A stretch of 64,000 nucleotides of DNA from NCBI GenBank assembly GCA_000526575.1, contig JAGI01000002.1, positions 1,736,001-1,800,000 of the forward strand, given 5' to 3'. The notes under the pieces were generated by a model. It was not told where the DNA came from. It saw only the letters and a list, made by a program, of their open reading frames with translations, and made no database searches. Below are positions 21,017 through 26,660 of the stretch, piece after piece. This DNA comes from Clostridium sp. 12(A). GTDB taxonomy: Bacteria; Bacillota; Clostridia; Lachnospirales; Lachnospiraceae. The position numbers and the translations under genes are program-made. Each line of letters begins with the position of its first letter. Positions within the stretch are counted from its first letter, which is position 1.

Positions 21017-21538
21017 TTAGCATGGTTTTCTAATATCAAAACTTGGATTAAATGCGTAGAAGTTCTTGCTATCCAGATTATCCTGAGTGATGCGGAGTGC
21101 TTCACCGAATCTCTGGAAATGAACGACTTCTCTTTCTCTTAAGAAACGTATCGGATCACATATTTCGGGATCTGTTATGACACGCAGAATGTTATCATAA
21201 GTACTGCGCGCTTTCTGCTCTGCTGCCATATCTTCTACTAAATCAGTAATGGGATCACCCTTTGACTGGAATTCACAAGCATTCTGGGGAATTCCACCTG
21301 CTGCCTGAGGCCAGATACCTGTTGTATGATCAATATAGTACGGTCCAAAGCCAGATTCTACTACCTGCTCTGGTGTAAGGTTTCTGGTAAGCTGGTGAAC
21401 AATTGCTGCTACGATCTCCATATGAGCTAATTCTTCCGTCCCGATATCCGTCAAAAGGCCTTTACACTCTTTATACGGCATAGCATATCTTTGAGAAAGA
21501 TATCGCAAGGAGGCACTTATCTCTCCATCGGGTCCACC
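21017..21538 (-). CDS. cotJC: cotJC, 3' segment (split spore-coat gene)
   Basis: This is the C-terminal ~170 codons of CotJC, a manganese-catalase-like spore-coat protein. GGPDGEISASLRYLSQRY, GTEELAHMEIV (di-metal ligands E and H) and EREVVHFQRFGEAL (second ligand set) are intact. The open frame continues upstream to 21643, but those codons (PPVCFQYLFLNS) do not match CotJC and belong to the inserted element. The missing N-terminus lies at 24943-25038 after cotJB. Joining at the shared GGnCCnCC core restores an in-frame protein of ~202 residues that reads SQYGGPDGEIS across the joint. In its present state the gene cannot make CotJC. Confidence 0.9.
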   Translation of the reverse strand, partial: GGPDGEISASLRYLSQRYAMPYKECKGLLTDIGTEELAHMEIVAAIVHQLTRNLTPEQVVESGFGPYYIDHTTGIWPQAAGGIPQNACEFQSKGDPITDLVEDMAAEQKARSTYDNILRVITDPEICDPIRFLREREVVHFQRFGEALRITQDNLDSKNFYAFNPSFDIRKPC

Positions 21539-21556
21539 TGAGTTCAAAAACAGATA
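21531..21556 (+). other. attL-type junction of the cotJC element
   Basis: The core GGTCCACC (21531-21538) is followed inside the element by TGAGTTCAAAAACAGATA (21539-21556). The reverse complement of this arm begins TATCTG at the same distance from the core as the arm at the other junction. Confidence 0.75.
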
Positions 21557-21605
21557 TTGAAAGCAAACAGGAGGAAGTTTATAATGGACTTCCTCCTGCT
21601 TGTCA

Positions 21606-21764
21606 TTATTCCTCATTTTCATATTGTTTACGGTTCTCTTCATATCTCAGGGTATTGGGACCTAGAAATTTACCGGTTTCCCAGTGGTTTTGGAAGGTCT
21701 CAGGCCTGTTGTCTGTCTTTTTCGCATTTTCTTGTGCTTTGGCTTTTTCTTCTTCTTTTTTCAT
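21606..21764 (-). CDS. Small hydrophilic protein in the cotJC element
   Basis: A 52-residue Lys/Glu-rich protein (MKKEEEKAKAQENAKK...) with NHWETGKFLGPNTLRYEEN near the C-terminus. GAGGTG lies 6 nt before the ATG at 21764. It reads leftwards out of the element toward the 3' half of cotJC and ends inside the element. The GPNT motif recurs in the 50-aa protein at 10108-10260. Small spore proteins often look like this, but the function is unknown. Confidence 0.65.
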   Translation of the reverse strand: MKKEEEKAKAQENAKKTDNRPETFQNHWETGKFLGPNTLRYEENRKQYENEE

Positions 21765-21877
21765 AATCATCACCTCATAATTAGTCTGTCCCGTTGACAG
21801 GGAATTATGTAAAACAAAAACTCATAATCTTTTAAACTTATCCATATATTGTAGAAACATTCCTTTGCGAGGCATTT

Positions 21878-22543
21878 ATGCAGACGATTACGAATAAGAC
21901 ACTTGCAGATACCCTTTATTATGAGGATATCCCTGTTCTTACCTATACAATTCACTATCCATACTTTACTACCACCTGTGGTTACACAACTGCCTGGAGG
22001 ATTAACAACTTTTATAGATTTCAGGCGAAACAAAAAGAGAATTACGCTCGTACCACACTTTATAAGGAGGCAGTGGAGCAGGCAAAGTATCAAAAGGAAA
22101 ATAATTACCCATTTAACAACTATGAAGTTCTTTCCATCTATCAAATTACATACAACAATAACTGTATCGTTAGTCTCTATACTGATTATTATACGTATTT
22201 GGGCGGAGCCCATGGAACTACAGAGAGAACGTCTGAGACCTGGGACTTTCAAACAGGGAAACGCCTCAGTCTTTCTGATTATTTTCCTGATGATCCTATG
22301 TTTATGGAATCCATTCTTGCTGAAATCAGCAGGCAGGTAACAGATCGTCTGGAAAAAGAACCTTCTACCTATTTTGAAGATTACCCTTCTCTAATACAGG
22401 GGAACTTTAATATAGAAGGATTCTACGTGACACCTGAGGGAATCGTCATTTATTACCAGCAGTATGACATAGCCCCCTACTCAACAGGAATACCAGAATT
22501 TTTATTACCATTTCAGAACTGCACGAAAAATTCTAATACATAG
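21878..22543 (+). CDS. DUF3298 (RsiV-like) protein
   Basis: A 221-residue protein built of a DUF4163-like N-terminal part and a C-terminal DUF3298 domain, with the hallmark YLGGAHGTT followed by the TGKRLSLSDYF phrase. This domain pair is found in RsiV (lysozyme-binding anti-sigma factor) and PdaC. Here neither a signal peptide nor a membrane helix is seen, so the protein may act inside the cell or be a reduced form. It lies inside the cotJC element as cargo. The ribosome site is weak. An in-frame terminator hairpin follows. Confidence 0.75.
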   Translation: MQTITNKTLADTLYYEDIPVLTYTIHYPYFTTTCGYTTAWRINNFYRFQAKQKENYARTTLYKEAVEQAKYQKENNYPFNNYEVLSIYQITYNNNCIVSLYTDYYTYLGGAHGTTERTSETWDFQTGKRLSLSDYFPDDPMFMESILAEISRQVTDRLEKEPSTYFEDYPSLIQGNFNIEGFYVTPEGIVIYYQQYDIAPYSTGIPEFLLPFQNCTKNSNT

Positions 22544-22547
22544 ATAA

Positions 22548-22578
22548 CAGCCCTGGCCAAGTGTTCCAGGGCTTTCCT
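22548..22578. terminator. Terminator between convergent genes
   Basis: AGCCCTGG pairs with CCAGGGCT and is followed by TTCCTTATTT. It is shared with the minus-strand HAD gene. Confidence 0.7.
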
Positions 22579-22928
22579 TATTTCTTATTCCAGGGTTTAA
22601 AAGAACGTATTTGGCTTAACAGTGTAGATGGATCTCCCTGAAAGCAAATAGCTCTGTCGTCTATATAGCAGATGGCTGGAACCTTTTCCCATTTAATATC
22701 ATCCACCTGGATCTTGTACTCTTTTAAATACTCTTCAATTGCCTTTTTTCCTTCTGCACTTGATGCCCTGGAAGAGACGACCACTACGTCATAGCCTGCA
22801 GCTCTGATGCTATGGATGGCCTCCCTGATTCCTTCTACCGGCTCATCCGGTATCACTTCCGCACTTACGTAACGCTGTTTATAGCTATGGATCACACCAT
22901 CAAAGTCAAATACCACTGTCCTTTTCAC
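22578..22928 (-). CDS. HAD-like phosphatase domain protein
   Basis: A 116-residue protein with HAD motif I DFDGVIHSY, motif II VVVVSSRAS and a motif IV-like ICYIDDRAI. This resembles the minimal HAD hydrolases often carried by phages and mobile elements. The probable start is the GTG at 22928, with AGGAGG 9 nt upstream. It is cargo of the cotJC element. The substrate is unknown. Confidence 0.75.
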   Translation of the reverse strand: MKRTVVFDFDGVIHSYKQRYVSAEVIPDEPVEGIREAIHSIRAAGYDVVVVSSRASSAEGKKAIEEYLKEYKIQVDDIKWEKVPAICYIDDRAICFQGDPSTLLSQIRSFKPWNKK

Positions 22929-23074
22929 GTTTTTCCTCCTTTAATCCCACATCAAATTTTCTCTACTCATTACATTTTGGCCCCTTTGATACAATCCTAT
23001 TCCTTGGAGGAAATGACTCCACCATTTGCATCATCTATTTCACTAAAACATCACATTTTCTACAAATTATCAAC

Positions 23075-23178
23075 ACATATAACCTGTATATTAACATGTA
23101 TAGAAGGTAATAACCCTTTTATTCAAAACTTTTTCATACTCAGCCGGCAGGATGGTATCATTCTGCCGGCTTCCTCCA
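23075..23178 (+). other. GCCGGC hairpin module, copy B
   Basis: A -10-like TGTATATTAAC (23085-23095) is followed, after ~40 nt, by ACTTTTTCATA and the hairpin AGCCGGCAG...CTGCCGGCT (23142-23171), then TTCCTCC. It lies between the HAD gene and the 52-aa gene, inside the cotJC element. Compare copies at 9203, 49408 and 54206. Confidence 0.45.
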
Positions 23179-23184
23179 TTTAAC

Positions 23185-23343
23185 CTATTTTAGTGTCTTA
23201 ATACGCTGATATCCCATGGATTCCATAAATTTGTCCTGTAGCACTTCTGCTATTTCCTCTCTTTTTTCCTTTGGCAATGAATCTATAAGAATCGTTTTAC
23301 CATTTATTTCTATGTAATTTTCTATTACCGGCATTTTATTCAT
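23185..23343 (-). CDS. 52-aa protein divergent from the recombinase (candidate directionality factor)
   Basis: A 52-residue protein, MNKMPVIENYIEINGKT..., with a beta-hairpin-like start and an amphipathic helix (LPKEKREEIAEVLQDKFM). The start at 23343 follows GGAG. It is separated from the recombinase gene by only ~62 bp of shared divergent promoter region. Small proteins next to large serine recombinases can be recombination directionality factors, but there is no sequence proof for this one. Confidence 0.65.
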   Translation of the reverse strand: MNKMPVIENYIEINGKTILIDSLPKEKREEIAEVLQDKFMESMGYQRIKTLK

Positions 23344-23405
23344 AATCTCCGCCCCTTCCTGATAAAATGTATGTGACATGGATTGTACTTGTTTCGCCAT
23401 TTTCC

Positions 23406-24884
23406 ATGGGGCAAGCAGAAAGAAGTGATTATAGATTGAAAAGATATGAATCCAATGAAACCGGGGCTGCTTATGTAAGGGTAAGCACCAATGATCAGAC
23501 TGAATTATCACCAGCTGCTCAGGTAAGAGAAATTATGAAGGCTGCAAAAGCAGATGGTATTATCATTCCAAAAGAATATATTTTTATAGAAGAAAGAGGA
23601 GTAAGCGGCCGCCGTGCTGATAATCGGAAAGAATTTCAGCGAATGATTTCCATTGCAAAATCACAGCCCTCTCCCTTTCAGTATCTTTATCTATGGAAAT
23701 TTTCCAGATTTGCAAGAAACCAGGAGGAAAGTACCTTTTACAAAAGTGTTCTCCGTAAGAAATGCGGGGTAACCATCAAAAGTGTATCAGAGCCTATTAT
23801 GGAAGGCATGTTCGGACGTTTGATTGAAAGCATTATTGAATGGTTTGATGAGTACTACTCATTTAATCTCTCCGGAGAGGTAACGCGGGGCATGACAGAA
23901 AAGGCCCTAAGGGAAGGATATCAGACTACCCCTTGCCTTGGTTATACTGCCCGGGGAGGTGGAAAGCCGTTTCTTATTCAGGAGGAAGAATATAAAATTG
24001 TGGAATTCATTCACCAATCCTACCATAACGGCATGGATTTATCTTCCATTGCCAGAGAAGCGAACGAAAGAGGGTATTTGACCAAGAGAGGAAATTCATT
24101 TGACAGACGTTCCATCGAACGTATATTGACCAATCAGTTTTATAACGGGATTGTCATATGGAAAGACATATCCTTTCATGGGTCTCATGAAGTAAGAAGC
24201 TCCGTGACCTCTGTCTTTCATGACAATCAGAGCCGGCTTCAAAGGGAATTTCGCCCCAGAAACAGAAGAGAAAGCTCCGATTGCAGGCATTGGGCCTCAG
24301 GTCTCCTGACTTGTGGTTATTGCGGGGCAAGCCTGGGGTGCAACAGAGCTGGTAAAACAAATCTTAAAAATGGTTATTTTCAATGCTGGCGGTATGCCAA
24401 GGGGACTCACTCCCAATCCTGTAGTATTACCGTAAGCAAAGCAGAGACTCTTATTCTGGAGTCCTTAAAAAATGTCCTTGATTTTGGGGAACAAGAATGT
24501 GAATATAAAAAGAAGCCAGATTTAATAAAGGATGACGAAGCAGAAAAAAATAAAGCAGCCCGTCTGAGGAATGCGGCTAAGCTGGCAAGAATTAAGGAAG
24601 CATACGAAAAAGGAATTGATTCCATAGAGGAATATAAATGCAGCAAAGAGCGCTTAGAGAGCGAAAGAATGGAATTAGACAGACAATATAATGATATAAA
24701 AAGAAAACTGGTTGATAATGTCGGTAAGAAAAACAGCCGGCAGCTGTTCAAAATCAAAAGTGCTTATGAAATATTATCCGACCCAGATACCGATAACACG
24801 ATTAAAGGGACTGCTTTAAGGACTATTGTAAAAAGAATCGTTTATGATAAGGAGCGTAATACGGTGAGGTTCTTCTATTATTAA
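23406..24884 (+). CDS. Large serine recombinase of the cotJC element
   Basis: A ~492-residue site-specific recombinase. The N-terminal resolvase domain has AYVRVSTNDQTELSP (catalytic Ser in RVS). KFSRFARNQEES supplies the active-site arginines, and a recombinase DNA-binding domain follows (~170-290). The zinc ribbon GYCGASLGC...CWRYAKGTHSQSC and a coiled-coil motif (~380-440, rich in K, E and R) come next. This is the domain set of SpoIVCA and phage integrases. The ATG at 23406 is the likely start, although no good ribosome site is seen and an upstream start at 23367 is possible. The protein is expected to excise the element between the two cotJC junctions. Confidence 0.9.
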   Translation: MGQAERSDYRLKRYESNETGAAYVRVSTNDQTELSPAAQVREIMKAAKADGIIIPKEYIFIEERGVSGRRADNRKEFQRMISIAKSQPSPFQYLYLWKFSRFARNQEESTFYKSVLRKKCGVTIKSVSEPIMEGMFGRLIESIIEWFDEYYSFNLSGEVTRGMTEKALREGYQTTPCLGYTARGGGKPFLIQEEEYKIVEFIHQSYHNGMDLSSIAREANERGYLTKRGNSFDRRSIERILTNQFYNGIVIWKDISFHGSHEVRSSVTSVFHDNQSRLQREFRPRNRRESSDCRHWASGLLTCGYCGASLGCNRAGKTNLKNGYFQCWRYAKGTHSQSCSITVSKAETLILESLKNVLDFGEQECEYKKKPDLIKDDEAEKNKAARLRNAAKLARIKEAYEKGIDSIEEYKCSKERLESERMELDRQYNDIKRKLVDNVGKKNSRQLFKIKSAYEILSDPDTDNTIKGTALRTIVKRIVYDKERNTVRFFYY

Positions 24885-24924
24885 AGTACTATAACCAGTA
24901 GAACCAGGGTTCTTTTGTGAAAAC

Positions 24925-25038
24925 TTATCTGCTGTTACAATAAGGCCCGCCGTACTGACTCATAATGAAAGTGGCAATCTTGGGATTGGGAGTGGTAATG
25001 TTTACCGGATACTGTAATCTTTTTTCATATCTCCACAT
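24925..25038 (-). pseudogene. cotJC: cotJC, 5' segment (codons 1-32 plus element-derived tail)
   Basis: MWRYEKRLQYPVNITTPNPK... is the conserved CotJC N-terminus. After SQYGGP the frame runs into element sequence (YCNSR) and stops at 24925. The ATG overlaps the cotJB stop codon (TGATG), the usual cotJB-cotJC coupling. The shortened 37-aa product lacks all metal ligands. It becomes a full gene only when joined to 21017-21538. Confidence 0.9.
24926..24951 (+). other. attR-type junction of the cotJC element
   Basis: The inner arm TATCTGCTGTTACAATAA (24926-24943) precedes the core GGCCCGCC (24944-24951). Combined with the left junction this makes a 44-bp near-palindromic attP (18+8+18) with a central CC dinucleotide at 24947-24948 and 21534-21535. 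Confidence 0.75.
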
Positions 25039-25361
25039 CAGCCGCACACTCCTTCCCATGGCCATGGATCATTAATCCAGGTCCAATAATTTTTATCCAT
25101 AACACCATCTGTCATCAGAGGGCCACACTGCTCTTCATACGCCTCAACTGCTCTTCTTCTTAAATCTGAAACATAATAATAAAAGTTTAATGCATCCTTA
25201 TCACAGGGATGAGTGTCAAGATACAATACCACGTCATCCAATGCAAAACTGGCTTGGTAAACATGTTTTAATAACATATCGCAATCCACGTTACTGCCCA
25301 TGGTATTGCCCATGTTACAATCGATGTTACAATCCATGTTACAATTCATATTACAACTCAT
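25038..25361 (-). CDS. cotJB: Spore coat protein CotJB
   Basis: A 107-residue protein. The core LLKHVYQASFALDDVVLYLD...YYYVSDLRRRAVEAYEEQ and the C-terminal WTWINDPWPWEG motif are characteristic of CotJB, which assembles with CotJA and CotJC in the inner spore coat. The N-terminal ~30 residues are an unusual Met/Asn/Cys repeat (CNMNCNMDCNIDCNMGN). GGGAGG precedes the ATG, which overlaps the stop of the upstream CotJA-like gene (TGATG). Expression is expected in the mother cell. Confidence 0.92.
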   Translation of the reverse strand: MSCNMNCNMDCNIDCNMGNTMGSNVDCDMLLKHVYQASFALDDVVLYLDTHPCDKDALNFYYYVSDLRRRAVEAYEEQCGPLMTDGVMDKNYWTWINDPWPWEGVCG

Positions 25362-26620
25362 CAGCGGCACCCTCCCATCGTAAATGGTTTAAATAAATCA
25401 GGGAAAATTGTACCCATATTTATTGCTGTTTCAACAGAATAAACCTGCTGCCAGTTCTGCCATGGCACATAAGCCATTCCAACTGGATATTGGTCAATGC
25501 ATTCGGTAGCTGCTTCAGCAGCGGGAGGCGGACACCAGCCCGGACATACGTTGGGAGCTGGAGACCAGCAGGGACTCGTAGCTGGAGATGTGAATGAGGG
25601 CTCAGGACATTTTGCCGGCATTACGCAGCTTGGTTTTTCTGGACATTTTGCTGGTTTTACACAGGAAGGTTTTTCTGGACATCTTGCCGGCATCACACAA
25701 GAGGGTTTCTCCGGGCATTTTGCTGGCATTACACAAGAAGGTTTCTCTGGACACTTTGCTGGCATTACACAAGAAGGTCTTTCCGGACATCTTGCCGGTT
25801 TCACACAGGAAGGCTTTTCTGGACATCTTGCCGGCATCACACAGGAGGGTTTCTCTGGACATTTTGCTGGCATTACGCAGGAGGGCTTCTCTACACATTT
25901 TGCTGGCATTACGCAGGAAGGCTTTTCTATACATTTTGCTGGCATTACGCAAGAGGGTTTTTCTACACATTTTGCTGGCATTACGCAGGAAGGCTTCTCA
26001 ACACATTTTGCTGGCATTACGCAGGAGGGCTTCTCTACACATTTTGCTGGCATTACGCAAGAGGGTTTTTCTACACATTTTGCTGGCATCACTCTTGCTG
26101 GCATCACGCAGGAAGGTTTCTCCGGACACTTTGCCGGCATCACGCAAGAAGGTTTCTCTGGACATCTTACTGGCATCACACAGCTTGGTTTTTCTACACA
26201 TTTTGCTGGCATTACGCAGCTTGGTCTCTCCGGGCATTTTGCCGGCATTACGCAGCTTGGTCTCTCCGGGCATTTTGCCGGCATTACGCAGCTTGGTCTT
26301 TCCGGACATTTTGCCGGCATTACGCAGCTTGGTCTTTCCGGACATTTCATGGTACAATTATTTGCAGCGCTGTTTGATACGTTACAGCATGGTCTTTGGT
26401 TCCAGGAACATGGGCCAACAGAAATATCCTGGCGGCTCAATGGTATGGGAGCTGGTACTGGATCATTGGTCCTTGCCGGGCCTGAGCCAAGAGGCATATC
26501 AGGGCGGATTACCGTACCGGGGCTCATAGACATATCAAAGCCCATAGCAGGCTCCCATGGGTAGGATGTACCGTTACGGTCGTAGCCGTCGGGATATCCT
26601 TGTTTTGCATAACAATCCAT
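25361..26620 (-). CDS. CotJA-like coat protein with long Cys-Pro repeat array
   Basis: A 419-residue protein. The last ~60 residues (YPVGMAYVPWQNWQQVYSVETAINMGTIFPDLFKPF) match CotJA, which is normally only 75-85 aa. Before it comes a tandem array (residues ~93-337) of 20 full 12-residue units of the form CPEKPSCVMPAK or CVEKPSCVMPAK, plus partial units. The N-terminal ~90 residues are Pro/Gly/Met-rich. About 40 Cys in the array could allow dense cross-linking or metal binding. The start at 26620 lies 11 nt after AAAGGAG; the TTG at 26641 overlaps this site. It is first in cotJA-cotJB-cotJC. Confidence 0.88.
   Translation of the reverse strand: MDCYAKQGYPDGYDRNGTSYPWEPAMGFDMSMSPGTVIRPDMPLGSGPARTNDPVPAPIPLSRQDISVGPCSWNQRPCCNVSNSAANNCTMKCPERPSCVMPAKCPERPSCVMPAKCPERPSCVMPAKCPERPSCVMPAKCVEKPSCVMPVRCPEKPSCVMPAKCPEKPSCVMPARVMPAKCVEKPSCVMPAKCVEKPSCVMPAKCVEKPSCVMPAKCVEKPSCVMPAKCIEKPSCVMPAKCVEKPSCVMPAKCPEKPSCVMPARCPEKPSCVKPARCPERPSCVMPAKCPEKPSCVMPAKCPEKPSCVMPARCPEKPSCVKPAKCPEKPSCVMPAKCPEPSFTSPATSPCWSPAPNVCPGWCPPPAAEAATECIDQYPVGMAYVPWQNWQQVYSVETAINMGTIFPDLFKPFTMGGCR
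25610..26344 (-). repeat. 36-bp tandem repeat array inside the CotJA-like gene
   Basis: Twenty full 36-bp units plus a partial 15-bp unit, which is an in-frame deletion product. Units fall into CPER, CVEK and CPEK subtypes arranged in blocks, which suggests block duplication. Long antisense open frames over this region are products of the repeat. Confidence 0.9.
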
Positions 26621-26660
26621 AGGATGTTTGACTCCTTTCAATTATGAAAAGTTTCTACTA

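Follow-up and report, generated by a model that had tools for sequence, protein, structure and literature searches.

A handful of genes in spore-forming bacteria are known to be reassembled in a programmed way. The skin element in sigK of C. difficile is served by the recombinase CD1231 and the directionality factor CD1234, the latter being reported as mother-cell specific and under sigma-E and SpoIIID (PMC5025042). The gin element, which interrupts gerE in Bacillus cereus ATCC 10987, is served by GirC and GirX; it is 28.6 kb long, counts 31 genes and has three recombinases (PMC5595907). SPbeta, in spsM of Bacillus subtilis, is an active prophage with SprA and SprB (PMC4191935), and yin, in yabG of Clostridium botulinum V73, is a prophage reported as unique to one strain, whose integrated and circular forms coexist and for which a possible sigma-K promoter was proposed upstream of a putative directionality factor (PMC10747680). 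Here we analyze a 64,000-nucleotide stretch of Clostridium sp. 12(A) (assembly GCA_000526575.1, contig JAGI01000002.1, positions 1,736,001 to 1,800,000; hereafter the window), in which the coat-catalase-like gene cotJC is interrupted by a 3413-bp element carrying a large serine recombinase, Rec1. A literature search, in which subscription journals were covered in small part, found no paper describing a split cotJC.

The interrupted cotJC gene and its element

An earlier note on this DNA had placed the N-terminus of CotJC directly after cotJB with a TGATG overlap, the remainder 3.4 kb away on the same strand, and a large serine recombinase between the two; the coordinates and the domain matches bear out this arrangement. 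The features are as follows.

24925..25038, minus strand: cotJC 5' part, codons 1-32 (to 24943), then five codons into the element and a stop
21017..21538, minus strand: cotJC 3' part (GGPDGE... to stop), Mn_catalase Pfam match, E 4.4e-37
21536..24948, no strand assigned: proposed excisable element, 3413 bp
23436..24884, plus strand: Rec1, large serine recombinase (Pfam; PHROG integrase, 8.9e-80), in a frame open from 23367
24925..24970 (approximate extent), minus strand: attachment site attL, core GG 24947-24948, P' arm the inverted partner of the attR arm (multi-species comparison)
21510..21560 (approximate extent), minus strand: attachment site attR, core GG 21534-21535, P arm TATCTGTTTTTGAACTCA (multi-species comparison)
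23185..23343, minus strand: sm52, 52-residue protein, proposed recombination directionality factor, divergent from Rec1, with homologs in related elements
23366..23392, minus strand: conserved sigma-K-like promoter of sm52, AC-N17-CATACATT
25038..25370, minus strand: cotJB, CotJB Pfam match, E 9e-29
25361..26641, minus strand: cotJA-like gene, first in the cotJ operon, CotJA Pfam match, E 4.7e-16, about 20 copies of a 36-bp repeat
22578..22928, minus strand: HAD-family phosphatase-like cargo gene (Pfam/NCBIfam)
21878..22543, plus strand: PdaC/DUF3298 (RsiV-like) cargo gene (Pfam/NCBIfam)
21606..21773, minus strand: sm55, small open reading frame (ORF) kept in a number of closer relatives

The cotJC 5' part, whose start overlaps the end of cotJB as TGATG on the minus strand, reads MWRYEKRLQYPVNITTPNPKIATFIMSQYGGP and then departs from the family sequence (YCNSR, stop), and the 3' part, which shares its strand, runs from GGPDGEISAS... 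at 21538 to its end at 21017. The interruption falls at codons 31/32. Deletion between the two GG cores removes exactly 3413 bp and yields a joined frame of 202 codons and a stop, in line with the CotJC of about 202 residues that the note had expected from a join at the shared core. In the comparison with intact-cotJC strains that it had suggested, the joined gene aligns end to end with the uninterrupted cotJC of the same cotJB-cotJC locus in genomes G002, G010, G020 and G021 (86, 86, 81 and 81 % nucleotide identity, respectively); precise removal of the element from this split sporulation gene restores a frame like that of the intact relatives. Chance resemblance was ruled out by the recurrence of this split across many species.

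The element encodes its own site-specific recombinase. The Resolvase, Recombinase and Zn_ribbon_recom domains of Rec1 all score above the Pfam cut-off, which places it among the large serine recombinases; its likely start is the TTG at 23436, as judged from the sequence, and it matches the phage integrase family phrog_95 in PHROGs. A search of the Protein Data Bank returned two entries only, both for resolvase domains. Pfam and NCBIfam scans found no phage structural or lysis genes among the element genes, the PHROGs scan covering the recombinase and sm52, so that this is not a complete prophage but, as the note had held, a unit without phage body genes and far smaller than skin. It is probably a gene-intervening element with a recombinase of the prophage-integrase kind, a shrunken and domesticated prophage.

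The multi-species comparison gives attL and attR a common core. In many species an attR arm of the type TTATCTGTTTTTG precedes the core and an inverted matching arm of the type AAAAACAGATAA follows it at attL, and the symmetry of the arms centers on the GG that opens the second glycine codon of GGP. Relative to cotJC, the element is codirectional at 16 and convergent at 39 of 55 loci, and near-identical elements lie in opposite orientation at L055 versus L052, L056 and L063. A palindromic core was considered as the cause of the inverted elements and rejected: by eye, attL/attR pairs always agree only at core positions 1, 2, 4, 5 and 7, and it is the arms that are symmetric about GG. Apparent full CotJC matches beside Rec1 in L050 and L055 were read as alignment run-on because the attR arms of these loci look normal.

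The two parts might instead constitute a fixed split gene, translated as separate peptides that then assemble, with no DNA rearrangement at all. The window itself lends this some support, in that an ATG at 21643, upstream of the 3' part, begins an ORF of 208 amino acids that reads into it. However, 28 of 41 related 3' parts have an in-frame stop among the 20 codons that precede GGP, the 5' part has just 32 codons, and excision products occur in relatives; the join also falls inside what we take to be an active-site motif. We consider a fixed split gene very improbable.

Recurrence and selection on the cotJC halves

The genus was surveyed in 25 genomes, a close Rec1 being defined by E ≤ 1e-180. 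Sixteen genomes carry a close Rec1, which adjoins a cotJC half in 15; in the sixteenth, C. aerotolerans DSM 5434 (G001), it lies on a free contig. Among the remaining nine, cotJC is intact in four (G002, G010, G020 and G021), G016 retains the attR side and sm52 only, G005 is split only at the second site described below, the contigs of G007 are broken at the site, and G014 and G017 have the paralog only. The cotJC parts are about 2.5-3.4 kb apart at 12 of 13 genus loci and about 5 kb apart at L109, and a cotJC piece is present at 43 of the 47 loci on genome contigs.

In a wider sample of 160 genera, with a Rec1 threshold of E ≤ 1e-60, a CotJC N-terminal match was found in 102 genera and ends at codons 30-38 in 20 of these. 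Rec1 is present in 19 of the 20 split genera versus 7 of the 140 others; in the twentieth, G140, a weaker and partial Rec1 sits at the start of a contig, and one of the seven (G062) has Rec1 beside a match resembling the cotJC 3' part on the same contig. The 5' part in G168 ends at a contig edge. A Rec1-type enzyme is present in all ten genera split at this site from which stretches were fetched, although in L156 and L166 it is partial, and where both halves share a contig the insert ranges from about 2.7 kb (G155) to 87 kb (G060).

To gauge whether the halves are maintained, ratios of nonsynonymous to synonymous substitution rates (dN/dS) were calculated. For the 3' part of the window, dN/dS was 0.009 against C. 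aerotolerans, 0.000 against a genome of the same species (L101) and 0.084 against L109, with six further split relatives at 0.021-0.042 and dS saturated in the remaining pairs; for the 5' part, window pairs gave 0.000-0.054, with L116 at 0.120. Seven pairs of split genes gave 0.000-0.049 for the 3' part, and two intact pairs gave 0 (dS 0.027) and 0.136 (dS 0.055). Rec1 itself has a dN/dS of 0.108 against C. aerotolerans. Integrity was counted over 61 loci, 41 of which have the 3' part (38 distinct), the filter removing none, and 20 of which lack it in the stretch fetched: 31 parts are full length (at least 160 codons), one has 157 codons, five end at the second site (38-47 codons) and four at the third (111-120 codons), and none is cut other than at these shared sites. 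A recent pseudogene was ruled out by the low dN/dS and the intact frames. By these sequence measures, the split cotJC halves have not decayed.

These data bear directly on the possibility that the element is an ordinary mobile one, Rec1-bearing phage-like parasites using a conserved cotJC motif as attachment site and breaking a gene whose loss a second cotJC covers. Consistent with this, Rec1 matches a phage integrase family, three genera have related inserts of about 36, 39 and 87 kb, Rec1 occurs on viral contigs, including two (L179 and L186) with complete attP sites, and a different contig of the window genome bears a further cotJB-cotJC pair that is intact, its cotJC 66 % identical to the 3' part. 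Yet dN/dS is low in both halves, all 41 of the 3' parts are either whole or interrupted at a shared site, the promoter of sm52 is sigma-K-like, and Rec1 distances track those of the host proteins, with r = 0.80 both for CotJB over 39 loci and for the CotJC 3' part over 31, values that none of 2000 permutations reached. Extra cotJC copies, by comparison, do decay, as seen from truncation or internal deletion of the ones at L104 (G002) and L102 (C. aerotolerans). We therefore regard a purely parasitic insertion as unlikely. The earlier note had named a second intact cotJC beside a locus that stays split as an outcome that would count against excision; the second copy does exist, which bears this out in part, although the low dN/dS of the split gene argues against a simple replacement.

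Two of the intact-gene genomes, G002 (L104) and G010 (L114), have after cotJC a hairpin-like stretch followed directly by sm52, HAD, PdaC and sm55 as element remnants, the sm52 of G010 containing a stop. These remnants are followed in G002 by an attR and a truncated copy of the 3' part; the G010 stretch showed no 3'-part copy of this kind. A Rec1 search at 1e-40 gave no match in either genome, the G010 sequence being 67 % complete. In our reading, the recombinase may have been lost where cotJC no longer needs it.

Recombination products, sm52 and the proposed excision

Forms expected from excision occur in relatives of the window strain. In C. aerotolerans DSM 5434 a contig of 3417 bp consists of exactly the element, its ends sharing GGTGG, and its overlap with the attR contig is exact over 95 nt, a length that we take to reflect an assembler k-mer of 96; no contig with the cotJC 5' part was found in this assembly. 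We read these contigs as a probable branch in the assembly graph, at which integrated forms part from circular (or tandem) ones. G019 (L122) has a precise attP between two tandem element copies, and the attP sites of both genomes agree with exchange at the GG of GGP. The L122 locus as a whole is a tandem array of the element plus cotJB and the cotJC 5' part, either genuine or an assembly artefact. Complete attP sites are likewise present on the viral contigs L179 and L186. A junction at a contig tail in G007, which carries an additional base and differs at 9 of 168 positions, was not used as proof. The earlier proposal that a serine-recombinase element can be excised from a coat-catalase gene is supported by these forms, together with the join and the selection on both halves.

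The attP and free-element forms in culture-derived assemblies could also arise from a stochastic on/off switch, in which excision and reinsertion (or inversion) in growing cells produce phase variation unlinked to development; the differing orientation of the near-identical elements noted above fits such a switch as well. Against it, an inverted element leaves cotJC split all the same, the motif AC-N17-CATACAnT before sm52 fits a sporulation sigma factor, and serine integrases often need a directionality factor for excision (PMC5025042), so that free toggling is not expected. A switch of this kind is quite unlikely.

We propose sm52 as the directionality factor for Rec1. An iterated sm52 profile gave 42 ORF matches among 59 loci scanned, and in the 160-genus sample sm52 is present in 15 of 26 Rec1-positive genera versus none of 134 Rec1-negative ones. 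Its promoter was examined in 28 distinct upstream sequences anchored on an sm52 protein motif, with letter shuffles as the null. CATAnnnT occurs in all 28 (3.3 expected) and AC-N16-18-CATAnnnT in 23 (0.5 expected), whereas an ATA box at the spacing of sigma-E occurs in none (0.46 expected), which leaves a sigma-E promoter unsupported at the spacing tested. In a study of C. difficile, sigma-E and sigma-K promoters share the same -10 and differ in the -35 (ATA for sigma-E, AC for sigma-K), and the catalases CotCB and CotD belong to the sigma-K regulon (PMC3789822).

Taken together, it is likely that programmed excision of the element in the mother cell restores cotJC, as for skin in sigK, with sm52 as the proposed directionality factor. 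In growing cells the element in codons 31/32 would keep cotJC off. In the sporulating mother cell the sigma-K-type promoter would turn on sm52, which would switch Rec1 from integration to excision; attL and attR would recombine at the GG core, the element leaving as a circle and cotJC being restored in frame. The spore would retain the split copy, and the deletion would not be inherited because the mother cell dies. The likeness in working to skin-type excision is well supported; the role of sm52, the timing (sporulation, mother cell, sigma-K) and the function of CotJC in the coat are what we infer.

Several observations weigh against this proposal. The attP and free-element forms were seen in relatives only, not in the window strain, and are silent on cell type, and tandem copies are another possible source of those in G019 and C. 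aerotolerans. The second intact cotJC could make excision dispensable, and the uninterrupted cotJC of 4 of 25 genus genomes means that the element is not essential to the genus, one of these genomes (G010) being only 67 % complete. No sm52 was found in 11 of 26 Rec1-positive genera, and sm52 has no Pfam, NCBIfam or PHROG match. The AC box is missing in 5 of the 28 upstreams, and shuffling overstates the significance of the promoter because these upstreams are related. Finally, dS is saturated for many window pairs, and a share of each pairwise divergence may predate the insertion.

Further split sites and comparison with known systems

A second cotJC insertion site lies near codon 66 (GTEE) and is associated with a different recombinase, Rec2 (loci L033, L106/L107, L108, L109, L118/L119 and L169). 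In six of seven second-site genera fetched, the CotJC match ends at codons 62-68, and Rec2 was seen in one of the stretches fetched; in G004 the insert at this site is about 41 kb with holin and endolysin genes, apparently a prophage. A third site, MAAE|QKAR, is used in L036, L038, L039 and L050, with another serine recombinase nearby (L036 7862-9427, L039 11608-13227), and cotJC is cut at two sites in G004, G006, G015 and L033. All three positions presumably coincide with manganese-ligand motifs. In G015 (contigs C55/C61; L118, L119), a contig begins exactly at the second-site core and has an overlap of 77 nt. This overlap suggests integrated and excised (or empty) forms in one sample; G015 and several further loci are metagenome bins, in which strain mixtures could mimic branch points.

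The sigK gene of the window genome also appears to be in pieces, apparently three (G000:C2:976300-989409; L142, L153): C2:989128-989409, C2:984556-984933 and a C-terminal piece near C2:976357 that is a short motif match alone. The first gap, of about 4.2 kb, holds one recombinase and cytochrome-b5-like and alpha-galactosidase-like genes, and the second, of about 8 kb, three tandem serine recombinases. A joint reading, which we judge to stand at even chances, is a cascade in which sigK, in three pieces with two recombinase inserts, would be reassembled, sigma-K would turn on sm52, and cotJC would then be reassembled. Insertions across Lachnospiraceae would converge on cotJC as a hotspot, where three recombinase families act at three separate sites, each within a conserved metal-binding motif, and where some genes are cut twice; the inserted prophages would have been reduced to units of about 2.5-3.4 kb that are kept for reassembly.

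At the head of the cotJ operon, the cotJA-like protein carries about 20 tandem 12-residue repeats of the type CPEKPSCVMPAK N-terminal to its CotJA domain (window 25605-26347), encoded by 13.5 plus 7 copies of the 36-bp unit.

If the proposed excision is correct, programmed reassembly reaches a coat catalase across many genera of one family of gut bacteria, and a spore-coat oxidative-stress enzyme is tied to a developmental decision made at the DNA level. The minimal unit, one recombinase, a 52-residue partner and two att sites, is simple enough for direct testing, and the split could explain why genome annotations for these bacteria may show cotJC as missing or broken.

Among the known systems, the cotJC element resembles C. 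difficile skin in its large serine recombinase, in the restoration, here proposed, of a gene by excision and in a separate small protein with sporulation-type expression, here predicted from the promoter. It differs in targeting a coat catalase rather than a sigma factor, in its 3.4 kb, and in that the sm52 promoter looks sigma-K-like and not sigma-E-like; sm52 and CD1234 are likened by the role proposed for sm52. Like gin, it is gene-intervening, lacks phage-related genes and pairs a serine recombinase with a directionality factor (here the candidate sm52), but it has one recombinase and four other ORFs and interrupts another gene. With SPbeta it shares a spore-envelope gene that is interrupted and, as proposed here, restored by excision, and larger relatives of the window element reach prophage-like lengths; unlike that active prophage, the window element is without phage body genes. 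The parallels with yin are an interrupted clostridial spore gene, integrated and circular forms (here attP and free element in relatives) and a possible sigma-K promoter before the candidate directionality factor, whereas yin is reported from one strain and the cotJC split spans many genera. What we call new relative to the known intervening elements is the target gene, the very small unit, the broad spread and the use of several sites.

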